This document shows positions 4,926 through 10,365 of a stretch of 64,000 nt of DNA, piece after piece. The notes under the pieces are model-generated. The model did no database searches. It was not told where the DNA came from and was given only the letters and a program-made list of their open reading frames with translations. Numbering within the stretch: the first letter of the stretch is position 1; the number at the start of each line of letters is the position of its first letter. This DNA comes from Thermoflexales bacterium (GTDB lineage: Bacteria > Chloroflexota > Anaerolineae > J036 > Brachytrichaceae). Where the stretch lies: the NCBI GenBank assembly GCA_025057935.1, contig JANWUW010000009.1:1-64000 (forward strand). The letters are read 5' to 3'. A program made the translations under genes and the position numbers.

Positions 4926-6455
4926 CTACTGCTCTTGGCGCAAGTGGGGAAAGAGCAGCACTTCGCGGATGGTGTCTTTGCCTGCGAGCATCATCACCAA
5001 GCGGTCGATCCCCATCCCAAACCCGCCCGTGTTGGGCATGCCATACATCAGCGCGCGGATGTAGTCCTCGTCCACGGGATTTGCTTCGCCCTCCTCAGCG
5101 TTTTCCGTCTCGGCGAGGAAGCGCGCGCGCTGCTCGAGGGGATCGTTGAGCTCGGTGAACGCATTGCACAATTCAGCGCCGCCGATGAACCCCTCGAATC
5201 GCTCCACATGAGTGGGGTCGCCAGGCACATTTTTGGCAAACGGCGAAATGTCGCGCGGGTATTCGTAGAGAAACGTGGGCTCGATCAACGTGCGCTCCAC
5301 GTAATCGCCGATCAGCAGATCAACGATCTTGCCCCAAGGTTTGCCTTGCACTGCCTCGCGCGGCAGCAAGCCGCGCCGCACCACTTCGTCGGCGAGCGCG
5401 TGTGCGGTTGGGAAGGCGCGGTAATCTACGCCTGTACGCTCGAGGATCGCATCGCGCAGCTTGATGCGCTTGAACGGGCGAAGCCATTCAATGGTGTGAC
5501 CGCGAAAGTGTGTCTTGCCCTCGGCTTCTGGCGGCAATACTGTGCGCGCTACGTATTGGATCAAGCGCTCGGTGAGATCCATCACGTCGTACATGTCCCA
5601 ATAAGCCGCGTAGAACTCCAGCATGGTGAACTCGGGATTGTGCTTGTAGCTCACCCCCTCGTTGCGGAAGTCGCGGCCGATCTCATACACACGCTCGAGG
5701 TTGCCGACGATCAATCGCTTGAGATAAAGCTCAAATGAGATGCGCAGGTAAAGGTCTTGGTGAAGCTGGTTGTGGTGTGTGATAAACGGGCGCGCTGCTG
5801 CGCCGCCGTAGATGGGTTGCAAAATTGGCGTCTCAACTTCGAGGAAGCCCTCGTTGTCGAGGAAATCGCGAATCGCCTTGATCACGCGCGCGCGCAAGAT
5901 GAATATCTGCCGCACCTCGGGGTTCACGGCGAGGTCAGCGTAGCGCTGACGATAGCGCAGCTCTGGGTCGGAAAATGCGCTGTGGCGGCGAACGCTGCCG
6001 TCGGGAAGGCGCTCTTCTTTGGCGAAAGGCAATGGGCTCAGCGACTTGGCGAGCAGGTTCCACGCGATTACGCGGAGGCTCGGCTCGCCCGTCTTGGTGA
6101 GCATCGGATGCCCGCGCGCTTCAATGAAATCGCCGAGGTCGAGATCGGCGAAGCGCTCGAAGGATTCCAGTGAGAGTGAATCTTCGCTCACGCGCGCGAA
6201 AAACTGAATGCGACCGCTGACGTCCTCGACGTGAGCAAAGCATGCCTTGCCCATCAACCGCTTGGAGATGATGCGACCCATGACAGCGATCGGCTGAGGG
6301 TTGGCAGGCAGTTCGCCACGCGCGCGACGCACAGCTTCGGCTGCCATGATGCGCTCGCGAAGGAATTGCGCCCGTGGAGGATAGGGATCGATGCCGGCGG
6401 CGCGAAGGCGCTCTAATTTGGCTAAGCGCTCGCGCTCAACTTCGGTCAGCTCCAT
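4926..6455 (-). CDS. lysS: Lysyl-tRNA synthetase, class II
   Basis: Charges tRNA-Lys with lysine in the cytoplasm. The 509-residue protein has an OB-fold anticodon-binding domain (about residues 55-150; IAVMGRIISKRLMGK) followed by the class II catalytic core: motif 1 region LRARVIKAIRDFLDNEGFLE, motif 2 YEIGRDFRNEGVSYKHNPEF and motif 3 GGFGMGIDRLVMML close to the C-terminus. The frame is open for 69 codons further upstream, but the start at 6455 (MELTEVERER) gives the normal family length, and the upstream stretch does not look like protein. A TACTAT box ends 5 nt before this ATG. The gene follows the S1-domain gene by 52 bp on the same strand and may be co-transcribed or have its own promoter. 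Confidence 0.96.
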   Translation of the reverse strand: MELTEVERERLAKLERLRAAGIDPYPPRAQFLRERIMAAEAVRRARGELPANPQPIAVMGRIISKRLMGKACFAHVEDVSGRIQFFARVSEDSLSLESFERFADLDLGDFIEARGHPMLTKTGEPSLRVIAWNLLAKSLSPLPFAKEERLPDGSVRRHSAFSDPELRYRQRYADLAVNPEVRQIFILRARVIKAIRDFLDNEGFLEVETPILQPIYGGAAARPFITHHNQLHQDLYLRISFELYLKRLIVGNLERVYEIGRDFRNEGVSYKHNPEFTMLEFYAAYWDMYDVMDLTERLIQYVARTVLPPEAEGKTHFRGHTIEWLRPFKRIKLRDAILERTGVDYRAFPTAHALADEVVRRGLLPREAVQGKPWGKIVDLLIGDYVERTLIEPTFLYEYPRDISPFAKNVPGDPTHVERFEGFIGGAELCNAFTELNDPLEQRARFLAETENAEEGEANPVDEDYIRALMYGMPNTGGFGMGIDRLVMMLAGKDTIREVLLFPHLRQEQ

Positions 6456-6460
6456 GCGGG

Positions 6461-6466
6461 ATAGTA
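6461..6466 (-). promoter_or_regulatory. -10-like box TACTAT before lysS
   Basis: On the minus strand TACTAT ends 5 nt before the lysS ATG. It fits the TANNNT leaderless pattern seen repeatedly in this window. No -35 box is evident. Confidence 0.4.
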
Positions 6467-6507
6467 AAGTTTGCGGGCCGCCAGCGCTGCCCGTTTGGGG
6501 GGAGATG

Positions 6508-7458
6508 CTAATTCGCGCTCTGCGCCAGCGCAGCTTCAGATTCGGTCTTGCCAGTTTCCTGAATGCGCTTGAGGCGTTGTGCGCGTTGAAGCGCAACAGC
6601 AAACGGGCTAAGCTCTTCCTCCGGACCTGAGGAGAGCACCAAATCGCGCGCGTCCACGCCATCCAGAGCTAACTCGAGCACCTTGCGCCCCGGATCCACG
6701 CGCAGCACCTTGACCGTGACTTGCTCGCCCTGAGAGACGAAAGCGCGCAGGTCAGCGTAGCTTGCGCCCAGCGAGGAGGCGCGCACCACACCTTCGCGCT
6801 CAGCGCCAATGTCCACGTAAGCCACAGTGCGCTCGACGCGCTTGACCGTGCCCGTGTATTTCTCGCCCTTGCGAATGCGATCCCAAGGCAACGCCGGTGG
6901 CTCAATCATCGTCAAGCCGATGCGGCGCTTGGGCTCGTCCACTTCGATAACCCACAACTTCTCCAGCACATCCCCCACTTTGGGGCGGAAGTCCTTAGGC
7001 ATGAGGTTAAACGGCACCAACCCGTGCTTGGGGCCGTCGAAGTCCACAAACACCCCGAAGCTCTCGACTGAGACGACTTTCGCGTTGTGCACTATAGTGC
7101 CGACTTGCAGATTGTCCCAGCCGTACGCGGGTGGTTGGTGCATGGTGAGATCTACGCGCTTCTGTTTAGGGTTGACGCGCTTCACATACACCTGGACCTC
7201 ATCGCCTTCCTTCAGCACATCAGCGAGGCGAAGGATGGGCTTGCCATCGGCGGTGACTACCTGCGAGATGTGGAGGAAGCCGATGACCCCGCCGATGTCC
7301 ACAAATGCGCCGCCTAGCTCGACGCGCAGCACTTTGCCCTTGAAGCCCATGCGTGGCTTCAGATCCTCTAGGCGTAGCGCTGCGCCATCGCGCGATGCAG
7401 CTTGCTCAGTTAATTTGGTTGCCTGGTCTGGATGAAGTTCCAGCGATGCGTTGCTCAC
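6508..7458 (-). CDS. S1 RNA-binding domain protein (ribosomal protein S1-like)
   Basis: RNA-binding protein of 316 residues with three S1 domains. The first (about residues 30-110, MGFKGKVLRVELGGAFVDIG), second (about 115-190, VGTIVHNAKVVSVESFGVFVD) and third (about 200-270, EKYTGTVKRVERTVAYVDIG) each show the G-x-V...G-x-FV-D/DIG pattern. A bacterial S1 protein usually has four to six such domains, so this is a short form; short S1 proteins are common outside Proteobacteria. I chose GTG at 7458 because GAGGAG sits 8 nt before it; a further in-frame GTG at 7494 would add 12 residues but has no ribosome site. It lies between pnp (132 bp upstream) and lysS on the same strand, consistent with a translation and RNA-turnover cluster. 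The acidic and Gln-rich tail has no known role. Confidence 0.88.
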   Translation of the reverse strand: MSNASLELHPDQATKLTEQAASRDGAALRLEDLKPRMGFKGKVLRVELGGAFVDIGGVIGFLHISQVVTADGKPILRLADVLKEGDEVQVYVKRVNPKQKRVDLTMHQPPAYGWDNLQVGTIVHNAKVVSVESFGVFVDFDGPKHGLVPFNLMPKDFRPKVGDVLEKLWVIEVDEPKRRIGLTMIEPPALPWDRIRKGEKYTGTVKRVERTVAYVDIGAEREGVVRASSLGASYADLRAFVSQGEQVTVKVLRVDPGRKVLELALDGVDARDLVLSSGPEEELSPFAVALQRAQRLKRIQETGKTESEAALAQSAN

Positions 7459-7590
7459 GTCGGGGATCTCCTCAGAAGCGCAAGATTCCTGCACTCACAG
7501 CAAAGTGCCGTCGGCGAACTTAGTTGCGCCGACAGCGCTCCAAATTGTATCCCATTTGCGCGTTGCTGTCGAGGGCGTTGTGTTAAATCT

Positions 7591-9933
7591 TCAGCGTTGT
7601 TTCTTGGTGGGCAGCGGTCGCGACTGCGGCTTGCCCACCGAGGCGGGCCTAGCACTTGCCCGAGCGGCATGCGGTCCGAACGCGGGCGCGCTGCCGCTGC
7701 TGGTGCGACGTTGCAAACCGCGATCTGCCGCCTGAGCTTCCTCAAGCGTCATGCCCTCTAGTACGGCGCGACGGCTGAGGCGCAGCTTGCCGTTGTCGTT
7801 GGCGATCACCATCACAGTGATCTCTTGTCCAGGACGCACCACATCCTCGACGCGGCGCACTGGTCGCTCAGCGAGTTGCGACACGTGCACCATGCCTTCG
7901 ACGCGTGGGAAGATCTCCACGAAGGCGCCGAACTCCGTCACGCGCGTGACGCGCCCAGTGTAAATCCCGCCCAGCTCGACTGTGCCCGTGAACGACGCGA
8001 CCAATTCACGCGCGCGTTCTGCGGCTTGCGCATCAGGGGTGACGATGAACACCCGCCCGTCCTCTTGAATGTCAATCTCAGCGCCAGTTTGATCTTGGAT
8101 CGACCGCACTGTCTTGCCGCCAGGGCCGATCAGCGTGCCGATCTTCTCGGGGTCGATCGTCATGATCAGGATGCGCGGCGCGTGCGGCTTCAATGTCGGT
8201 CGCGGCTCGCTGATAACCTCCATCATGCGGTCGAGGATCGCTAGGCGACCTTCGCGCGCCTGCGCTAGCGCCTCGGCAAGGATCTCGGGCGTGAGCCCAG
8301 AGATCTTGATATCCATCTGCAAGGCTGTAATGCCCTTGCGCGTGCCAGCGACCTTGAAGTCCATGTCGCCGATGTGGTCCTCGATGCCCTGAATGTCGCT
8401 GAGGATAGCGTAGCCATGCTCGATGCCGTCAGGGTGGGTAACCAAGCCCATGGCGATGCCAGCGACTGGTGCCTTGATCGGCACGCCTGCGTCCATGAGC
8501 GCCAGTGTGCTGCCGCACACACTCGCCATAGAGGTTGAGCCGTTGGACGAGAGCACCTCGCTCACGACGCGGATGGTGTAGGGGAACTCGTCCTCGCTAG
8601 GCAGCACAGCAAGCAACGCACGCTCTGCGAGGGCGCTGTGTCCGATCTCGCGGCGACTGCTGCCGCGCAGCATCTTCACCTCGCCCGTGCTATAGGGCGG
8701 GAAGTTGTAGTGGTGCATGTAGCGTTTCTCCTCAACGGGATGCAAACCGTCGAGCGGCTGGGCGTCGCTCTTGCTCCCGAGCGTGACGACCGAGAGCACT
8801 TGTGTTTCGCCACGGGTGAATAGGCCCACGCCGTGCGCGCGCGGCGCGAGGTGATCGCCCACCTCAATCCAGATTGGGCGGATTTGCCTCGGCGTGCGTC
8901 CATCAGGTCGGATTCCCTCAGTGAGGATGCGGCGGCGCACCACTTCGCTGGTGACGTCTTTGATCACCGCGTGCACCTCGTCTGGGTTCACCGTCTCATC
9001 TTCGGATTGCACCTGTGCGAGGATCTCGCCCTCGATAGCATCGAGCATCGCTTGGCGCTCAGCCTTCTCGAGCTCCAAGGCGAAGGTTTCCTGGATGCGC
9101 GTGCCCACAGCTTGGCGCACACGTTGATTGAGCGCCTCATCGCGCCCGAATCGCGGGTAATCAGCCTTAGGTTTGCCGATCTCAGCGCGCATGCGCTCTT
9201 GGAGAGCGATGAAGTCCTGGATGCTCTCGTGTGCCAGCTTGAGCGCGCGCACCATCGTCTCCTCGTCAACCTCGTTTGCGCCGCACTCGACCATCACGAT
9301 CGCGTCGCGCGTGCCAGCGACGCGCAGATCGAGGTCGCTGTACTCCATCTCGGGGATGGTGGGGTTGATCACCAGCTCGCCGTTGATCAGCCCGATGCGC
9401 ACAGCGCCGACTGGAGTCGTGAATGGCACATCGCTGATGATGAGCGCGGCGGAGGCGGCGTTCACCGCGAGAACGTCAATGTCGTTGATCTGGTCGTGCG
9501 AGAGCGCAGTGACGATCACCTGCACATCGTTGCGCAGGTCATCTGGGAAAAGCGGGCGCAACGGGCGGTCCACCAAGCGCGCGATGAGGATCGCGGCCTC
9601 GGGCGGGCGACCTTCGCGGCGGAAGAAGCTGCCCGGGATGCGCCCAGCAGCATAAAGCCGCTCCTCATACTCGACGTTAAGCGGGAAGAAATCAATGCCT
9701 TGGCGCGGCGTCTTCGCCATGGTCGCCGTGGCGAGCACCATGGTGTCGCCCATGCGTGCGGTCACTGCGCCGCCGGCTTGCTTTGCCAAATGGCCGGTCT
9801 CAATGACGATCTTGTGGTTCCCAACGAAGGCTTCGTAGACGTGCTTTGCCGGCTTCTCCGCCGGCACGATCAGAGATTCGGCAGGGGAAAAGGTCTGAAG
9901 CTGTTCCATGTTCTCCAGCAGCTGTTTAGACAT
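7591..9933 (-). CDS. pnp: Polyribonucleotide nucleotidyltransferase (PNPase)
   Basis: 3'-to-5' phosphorolytic exoribonuclease that degrades mRNA in the cytoplasm. The 780-residue protein shows the family order: first RNase PH-like core (GDTMVLATATMAKTPR), alpha-helical linker, second RNase PH core (GETQVLSVVTLGSKSDAQ; SEDEFPYTIRVVSEVLSSNG; MGLV), then KH domain (IGTLIGPGGKTVRSIQDQTG) and S1 domain (GGIYTGRVTRVTEFGAFVEI). A basic, Ser/Pro/Arg-rich tail of about 55 residues follows the S1 domain. Possible starts are TTG 9945, ATG 9933 and ATG 9909; I chose 9933, with GGAAG 12 nt upstream, but 9909 is possible. It follows rpsO on the same strand, separated by a terminator and an 88-nt hairpin that probably regulates it. 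Confidence 0.95.
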   Translation of the reverse strand: MSKQLLENMEQLQTFSPAESLIVPAEKPAKHVYEAFVGNHKIVIETGHLAKQAGGAVTARMGDTMVLATATMAKTPRQGIDFFPLNVEYEERLYAAGRIPGSFFRREGRPPEAAILIARLVDRPLRPLFPDDLRNDVQVIVTALSHDQINDIDVLAVNAASAALIISDVPFTTPVGAVRIGLINGELVINPTIPEMEYSDLDLRVAGTRDAIVMVECGANEVDEETMVRALKLAHESIQDFIALQERMRAEIGKPKADYPRFGRDEALNQRVRQAVGTRIQETFALELEKAERQAMLDAIEGEILAQVQSEDETVNPDEVHAVIKDVTSEVVRRRILTEGIRPDGRTPRQIRPIWIEVGDHLAPRAHGVGLFTRGETQVLSVVTLGSKSDAQPLDGLHPVEEKRYMHHYNFPPYSTGEVKMLRGSSRREIGHSALAERALLAVLPSEDEFPYTIRVVSEVLSSNGSTSMASVCGSTLALMDAGVPIKAPVAGIAMGLVTHPDGIEHGYAILSDIQGIEDHIGDMDFKVAGTRKGITALQMDIKISGLTPEILAEALAQAREGRLAILDRMMEVISEPRPTLKPHAPRILIMTIDPEKIGTLIGPGGKTVRSIQDQTGAEIDIQEDGRVFIVTPDAQAAERARELVASFTGTVELGGIYTGRVTRVTEFGAFVEIFPRVEGMVHVSQLAERPVRRVEDVVRPGQEITVMVIANDNGKLRLSRRAVLEGMTLEEAQAADRGLQRRTSSGSAPAFGPHAARASARPASVGKPQSRPLPTKKQR

Positions 9934-9951
9934 GACACGACTCAACTTCCA

Positions 9952-10039
9952 CTGCGGAGAACGGCTAGAGGTTAGAGGGCTGCCGACTTAGGCTGAAGCA
10001 AGTCGGCAATCCTCTAACTTCTACGCGCGTTCTCCGCAG
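9952..10039 (-). promoter_or_regulatory. 88-nt three-tiered hairpin in the pnp leader, candidate RNase III site
   Basis: Three nested stems face each other: an outer perfect 12-bp arm (CTGCGGAGAACG at 9952-9963 with 10028-10039), a middle 13-bp arm with one mismatch (9966-9978 with 10011-10023) and an inner perfect 8-bp arm (9982-9989 with 10000-10007) around a 10-nt loop. It lies 18 nt before the pnp start. In E. coli the pnp leader forms a long stem cut by RNase III, after which PNPase destabilises its own mRNA. The structure is seen directly; the mechanism is inferred from E. coli. Confidence 0.75.
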
Positions 10040-10052
10040 CCATGATTTGACA

Positions 10053-10084
10053 AATCAGCCCTGCCAAACGCGACAGGGCTGATT
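10053..10084 (-). terminator. Rho-independent-type terminator after rpsO
   Basis: A perfect 11-bp stem (AATCAGCCCTG at 10053-10063 with 10074-10084) around a 10-nt loop starts 11 nt after the rpsO stop. The U tract on the minus strand is short (TTTGT), so termination may be partial and allow read-through into pnp. Confidence 0.75.
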
Positions 10085-10095
10085 GTTTCTCCACA

Positions 10096-10365
10096 TTACC
10101 GCCTCAAGCCAAGCTTCGCCAACAGCTCACGATACGCCTGGGGGTCTTGTGCGGCGAGGTATTTGAGGTGCGCGCGCCGCTGCCCCACCAGCTTGATCAA
10201 GCCGTAACGCGAGCTACGGTCGTGCTTGTGCACCTTGAGGTGTTCATTCAGGCGATTGATGCGCTGCGTCAACAGCGCCACCTGCACTGCCGAGGAACCT
10301 GTGTCCCCTGGGGCAGTGGCAAACTTAGCGATGATCGCTGCCTTCTCTTTCTTGCTTAGTGCCAT
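10096..10365 (-). CDS. rpsO: 30S ribosomal protein S15
   Basis: Primary-binding small-subunit protein that contacts 16S rRNA. Its 89 residues are the usual length, with family blocks near residues 20-30 (GDTGSSAVQVALLT), INRLNEHLKVHKHD and the conserved C-terminal RSSRYGLIKLVGQRRAHLKYL. It is the first gene of the rpsO-pnp arrangement found in many bacteria, and is separated from pnp here by a terminator and a large hairpin. A TTAAAA-17-TAGAAT promoter is visible upstream. The leader is about 28 nt and contains a GGTAAGGTAAG repeat; in E. coli S15 represses its own translation through a leader pseudoknot, but I cannot show one here. Confidence 0.97.
   Translation of the reverse strand: MALSKKEKAAIIAKFATAPGDTGSSAVQVALLTQRINRLNEHLKVHKHDRSSRYGLIKLVGQRRAHLKYLAAQDPQAYRELLAKLGLRR

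Follow-up and report, generated by a model that had tools for sequence, protein, structure and literature searches.

Autocontrol of PNPase through a leader hairpin has been worked out in few bacteria, and the E. coli enzyme reportedly acts by degrading the double-stranded structure of its leader, as the title of a 2001 study by Jarrige has it. Repression of pnp by RNase III is known from E. coli, S. coelicolor, S. pyogenes, B. burgdorferi and C. jejuni (PMC8708148); in both E. coli (PMC8708148) and S. coelicolor (PMC10126417) RNase III cuts a hairpin in the rpsO-pnp intergenic region, and the pnp mRNA is destabilised. Two further kinds of described leader are pertinent here, namely the Actino-pnp RNA (RF01688) and the S15 leaders (RF00114 and others). 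The element described below was delineated in a Chloroflexota sequence of 64,000 nucleotides, the whole of which is referred to as the window. It resembles the E. coli leader in the order of rpsO, terminator, long hairpin and pnp, and in having a long double strand upstream of the Shine-Dalgarno sequence (SD), while, like Actino-pnp, it is a phylum-specific conserved hairpin with internal loops located just before pnp. However, the E. coli leader lacks the common core and its 3' arm is not complementary to the pnp SD (-0.6 to -2.4 kcal/mol), and Actino-pnp has a different core (GGUCCUCGGUAGUG ... CUUCGAUCGAAGACC). The S15 leaders belong to the same operon but precede rpsO, whereas the element of Chloroflexota stands before pnp and is retained even where rpsO lies elsewhere.

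The rpsO-pnp locus and its leader hairpin

The minus strand of the window carries, in this order, a tRNA-Thr gene (10513-10441), rpsO for ribosomal protein S15 (10096-10365; PF00312, E 4e-32), a terminator-like hairpin (10050-10086), a large hairpin (9952-10039) and pnp (7591-9909). The product of the last of these was identified as PNPase by Pfam, with PF01138, PF03725, PF03726, KH and S1 domains all detected, and an RNase III gene is present in the same genome (TIGR02191, 258.5 bits). The listed TTG start of pnp at 9945 is probably not the true one; with homologues as a guide, the probable start is the AUG at 9909, which follows GGAGAAC. This start was preferred because both the AUG and the SD region (CUGCUGGAGAAC, 9910-9921) are conserved in the sister species L004, in which, by our own reading of the sequence, an AUG further upstream of pnp is out of frame. 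Downstream of pnp, on the same strand, lie an ORF for a protein with three S1 domains (7494-6508) and a lysyl-tRNA-synthetase-like ORF, named from sequence only (6662-4926); as the listed reading frames of these two overlap (within 4926-7494), at least one of their starts was probably called too early.

A large hairpin of 88 nt between rpsO and pnp had been noted in a first-pass annotation, and folding confirmed it at exactly 10039-9952 on the minus strand, with an energy of -62.5 kcal/mol compared with -28.3 +/- 3.2 kcal/mol in shuffled sequences (z -10.7; none of 200 shuffles was as good). From the base upwards, its lower half consists of 13 bp (12 Watson-Crick and one G-U), a 1-nt bulge, 2 bp, a further 1-nt bulge and 4 bp, both bulges being on the 5' side; above this follow a 1x1 A.C mismatch, 8 bp, a second 1x1 A.C mismatch, 11 bp and a loop of 8 nt. 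The three stems of 12, 13 and 8 bp given in that annotation are a fair rendering of the tiers but inexact, the fold being made up of 13, 2, 4, 8 and 11 bp. The basal 5' arm (10028-10040) contains GGAGAAC, a copy of the pnp SD, and the 3' arm GUUCUCCGCAG (9952-9962) is complementary to that SD. The two halves of a conserved core, as defined by alignment and pair counts (alignment A1, see below), are UAGA-A-GUUAGAGG (10011-10023, with the mismatched A at 10019) and CCUCUAAC-C-UCUA (9966-9978, with the mismatched C at 9970). Neither the conserved core, nor its mismatch, nor the match of the 3' arm to the pnp SD had been remarked in that annotation. The hairpin is single-copy in the 2.27-Mb genome, and R1, the covariance model of the element, scored it at 61.9 bits and found no second locus within the window.

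The separate terminator that had been proposed behind rpsO is a real hairpin of 11+4 bp (10086-10050), but it has a weak, U-poor tail (UUUGUC) and fails a simple terminator scan. In 26 of 162 distinct rpsO loci (including L024, L026, L037, L042, L045, L048-L050, L052, L056 and L057) the hairpin directly after rpsO has a conserved sequence of its own, AACGAGUAGAUG ... CAUCUACUCGUUUG. Exact matches to it occur in 8 of 60 genomes, in each case as the sole genomic copy and always in the rpsO-pnp gap, so that a generic terminator can be discounted. A different hairpin takes this position in the window's family.

Conservation and distribution of the element

Of 60 related genomes, 55 yielded an S15 locus, and pnp follows rpsO on the same strand, with a spacing of about 130-630 nt, in 54 of the 55 loci read, the one exception (L040) being cut off by the end of its contig. 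In nearly all of the intergenic regions a long hairpin folds ahead of pnp with the shared core GG-N-AUUGGAG ... CUCCAGU-N-CC, which takes the form CAGG-A-AUUGGGGAG ... CUCCCCAGU-C-CCUG in most families and UAGA-W-GUUAGAG ... CUCUAAC-C-UCUA in the family of the window. A variant of the core was observed in L025, while in three members of the class (L028, L038 and L043) no such hairpin was found in the intergenic region. Strict automatic detection recovered the core in 39 of 54 class loci, and looser inspection adds most of the others; the strict rule, which served for counting only, has a chance rate of about 2% in shuffles and also fired in 19 of 179 cases when these regions were read on the reverse strand, the latter rate being high probably owing to partial matching by near-palindromes.

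Compensatory changes among Chloroflexota relatives, named in the first-pass annotation as the check on its stems, are strongly in evidence, and the stems survive. In alignment A1 (26 sequences from class relatives) the 27 pairs of the structure are formed in 86.8% of cells, compared with 34-51% for slid partners; doubly changed cells number 165, where shuffles give 59.6, and covariation scores 0.62 as opposed to 0.25. Additionally, core pairs change together between families (G-C to A-U and A-U to G-C), 24 of the 26 sequences have no pair at the mismatch column, and the core letters A15, G16, T20, T21, A64, C69 and T70 are near-invariant. A set of 48 core sequences was kept out of the pair statistics since its selection already demanded pairing. 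The pnp hairpin is a genuine RNA element that has been conserved in much of Chloroflexota.

The apical loop region is expanded to about 100-240 nt in L009, L013, L020 and L030, mostly because short units of the TTCTGGATTCTGG or GAGATTGGAGATTGG type are repeated in tandem, with the core below retained. Upstream of pnp in L082 stands a near-perfect palindrome of roughly 40 bp that repeats the 5' strand of the hairpin (GCGCTATTCAATTCCTGACGGCGG...); situated beside the pnp leader at a contig end, this may be an assembly artefact.

R1 was run over 301 genomes of the phylum and detected the element next to pnp in further classes of Chloroflexota; the model also scores generic palindromes in some genomes, and only pnp-adjacent matches were counted. 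With filters off, ten Chloroflexota loci outside the training set were matched on the correct strand, the strongest being L073, L079, L117, L084, L085 and L088; by the strict rule, the core was not found in 44 of 55 sampled loci of the other classes. Two of these matches come from genomes (G284 and G338) in which pnp and its hairpin (L073 and L084, respectively) are apart from rpsO, which is either on another contig or 1.7 Mb away, and since the hairpin stays at pnp in both, the element belongs with pnp. Three genomes of other classes (G118, G224 and G297; for example L068, L072 and L077) gave about a dozen R1 matches each, many of which are dispersed heptamer-like palindromes, GGGGTTGGGGGTTAGG ... 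CCTAACCCCCAACCCC, on both strands and not adjacent to pnp.

Linkage to pnp was also apparent from a scan of about 85,000 genomes with the core pattern AGGAATTGGRG, 18-48 nt, CYCCAGTNCCT, which covers one form of the core only, such that diverged relatives elsewhere could escape it. The scan yielded 99 stretches, 80 of which were read and to which the following figures refer. Fifty matches fell in Chloroflexota or unnamed bacteria, 48 of them lying 10-464 nt before pnp on the same strand; the remaining two are L211, located next to rpsO at one end of its stretch, and L169, an exception. None of the 30 matches in other phyla was near pnp or rpsO; 14 of these come from Pelagibacteraceae and are nearly identical to one another, the others being cyanobacterial repeats and isolated hits. 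The Pelagibacteraceae pattern, a near-identical stretch away from pnp in 14 genomes (L158, L161, L173 and 11 others), is probably coding and unrelated.

Complementarity of the 3' arm to the pnp Shine-Dalgarno sequence

The 3' arm of the hairpin is complementary to the SD of its own pnp gene beyond generic complementarity. Many leaders carry the same letters three times, i.e. in the 5' arm, as the complement in the 3' arm, and in the SD (for example GACCUCCG ... CGGAGGU; GCCUCC ... GGAGGC; UAUCCUUCG ... CGGAGGAUA). When duplex energies were computed for 72 non-redundant loci, 3' arms paired with their own pnp SD averaged -10.98 kcal/mol, compared with -8.52 (sd 0.28) kcal/mol after swapping of the SDs, and none of 20,000 permutations reached the own-SD mean. 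Perfect stems of at least 7 bp are formed by 19% of own pairs as against 2% of swapped pairs. The signal is limited to about positions -22 to -1 on the mRNA and to the part of the arm just below the core. As controls, the first 20 nt of the pnp ORF displayed no own-arm effect, and neither did the rpsO SD of the same locus (-8.88 vs -8.75, p 0.32); furthermore, the 3' arm binds its own rpsO SD less well than its own pnp SD (p 0.0016).

In the window, GUUCUCCGCAG and CUGCUGGAGAAC form a duplex of 11 bp in which a single U is bulged (-18.2 kcal/mol), and the two are mutually best, the own SD ranking top of 72 SDs and the own arm top of 72 arms. Though strong in the window itself, the signal is not significant in the window's family (n=9, p 0.25), nor is it within family f27 (n=9, p 0.20), and the sister species L005 is without it. 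The helix between arm and SD is the minimum-energy fold of a short, 5'-truncated window leader, and it is missing from the lowest-energy fold when a longer stretch of the ORF is included. The SD of the full leader is unpaired with a probability of 0.49, which falls to 0.38 on removal of the 5' arm and stands at 0.52 when both arms are removed; the change is modest, and swapped arms also lower the accessibility of the SD (0.43, vs 0.38 for own arms, p 0.01). Judged from these sequences, one arm of the hairpin looks as though it were built to cover pnp's own ribosome-binding site once the other arm is gone.

Possible modes of action and origin

The known action of RNase III and PNPase on pnp leaders, together with the RNase III gene and the complementarity between the 3' arm and the SD, leads us to propose a switch. 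The long hairpin with its mismatched conserved core would most likely be an RNase III processing site; after cleavage, the 5' strand would remain base-paired with the 3' arm and so leave the pnp SD free, until abundant PNPase degraded the SD-like 5' strand from its new 3' end, upon which the freed 3' arm would fold onto the SD and turn translation off. We lean, by a narrow measure, towards this account as a whole, i.e. a Chloroflexota-specific cis-regulatory pnp leader that is cut by RNase III, eroded by PNPase and masks the SD with its 3' arm. The lack of a significant SD signal in the window's family and in f27, and of any in L005, speaks against it, as do the modest and partly unspecific change in accessibility, the loss of the arm:SD helix with more of the ORF, and the absence of the hairpin from L028, L038, L043 and most sampled loci of other classes. 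More tentatively, and with somewhat less than even credence, the leader may constitute an RNA-only sensor which arose independently of the E. coli and actinobacterial leaders and in which PNPase activity is read out as repression without a repressor protein; if true, the 5' arm copies the SD and holds the anti-SD 3' arm until PNPase destroys it.

A simpler possibility, to which we accord perhaps one chance in four, is that of a conserved RNase III site which only destabilises the pnp mRNA, as in E. coli and S. coelicolor, with the SD match having no role. Such control is known in several phyla (PMC8708148; PMC10126417), the conserved core sits in the stem away from the SD-complementary part, and SD pairing does not occur in every family; the own-SD complementarity over the 72 loci is, however, strong and specific, and its negative controls are clean. 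The near-invariant letters of the core suggest sequence recognition and might mark the site of a repressor protein (PNPase via KH/S1, S15 or another protein) that acts without nuclease processing, and RNase III-independent PNPase repression has been reported for E. coli (Carzaniga 2015, as cited in PMC10362022). We consider a repressor site unlikely, as the core is embedded in a near-perfect helix of great length, which is more in keeping with a double-strand nuclease than with a compact protein site; S15 in particular is an unlikely repressor because the hairpin is kept with pnp when rpsO is elsewhere and has no match among the S15-leader families.

The strength of the stem and its location downstream of rpsO would also be compatible with a transcription terminator or a 3'-end protector of the rpsO mRNA, but this is very improbable given that no U tract follows position 9952, that the terminator scan has no site there, that rpsO already has its own separate hairpin behind it, and that the element is retained where rpsO is absent (L073 and L084). 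Finally, the many heptamer-repeat palindromes of some Chloroflexota genomes, which score with R1 on both strands, raise the question of a dispersed palindromic repeat lying before pnp by chance; such a repeat was rejected as scarcely credible, the hairpin being confined to one locus in the window's genome, with synteny kept and covariation over many families.

Compared with the described leaders, the element proposed here to mask the pnp SD would, by analogy, work in a similar manner, yet it fails the homology tests for both known pnp leaders. With filters off, R1 had no match in the E. coli K-12 locus (L154) up to E 10; the Actino-pnp hairpins from three actinobacteria were not matched either, and nothing was found in Bacillus, Sinorhizobium or Amphritea. 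Conversely, RF01688, which matched three actinobacterial loci as a positive control, gave no match above its gathering cut-off at the window hairpin and only chance scores in the window's genome. The window hairpin is not upstream of rpsO and matches no S15 leader model, only tRNA and chance matches were returned when the window and 20 related loci were scanned against Rfam, no family of Rfam 15 fits the pnp hairpin, and no such Chloroflexota element was described in the literature searched. Separate origins from the E. coli and Actino-pnp hairpins appear likelier, since there is no Rfam match and R1 matched neither of these hairpins while it did match Chloroflexota classes on which it had not been trained. 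The E. coli autoregulation layout recognised in the first-pass annotation therefore holds for the order of genes and hairpin but not for homology to the E. coli hairpin; as to its suggestion that the control is old or has arisen twice, the element is old within Chloroflexota, being present in several classes, and separate origins are favoured over ancestry shared with E. coli.

A defined covariance model is thereby gained for an RNA family absent from Rfam 15, and the coupling between the 3' arm and the SD represents a simple output step that is open to testing. With two other leader hairpins already described at this position, the finding of one more that is phylum-specific and seemingly related to neither suggests that bacteria have repeatedly evolved a nuclease-sensitive duplex in front of pnp.
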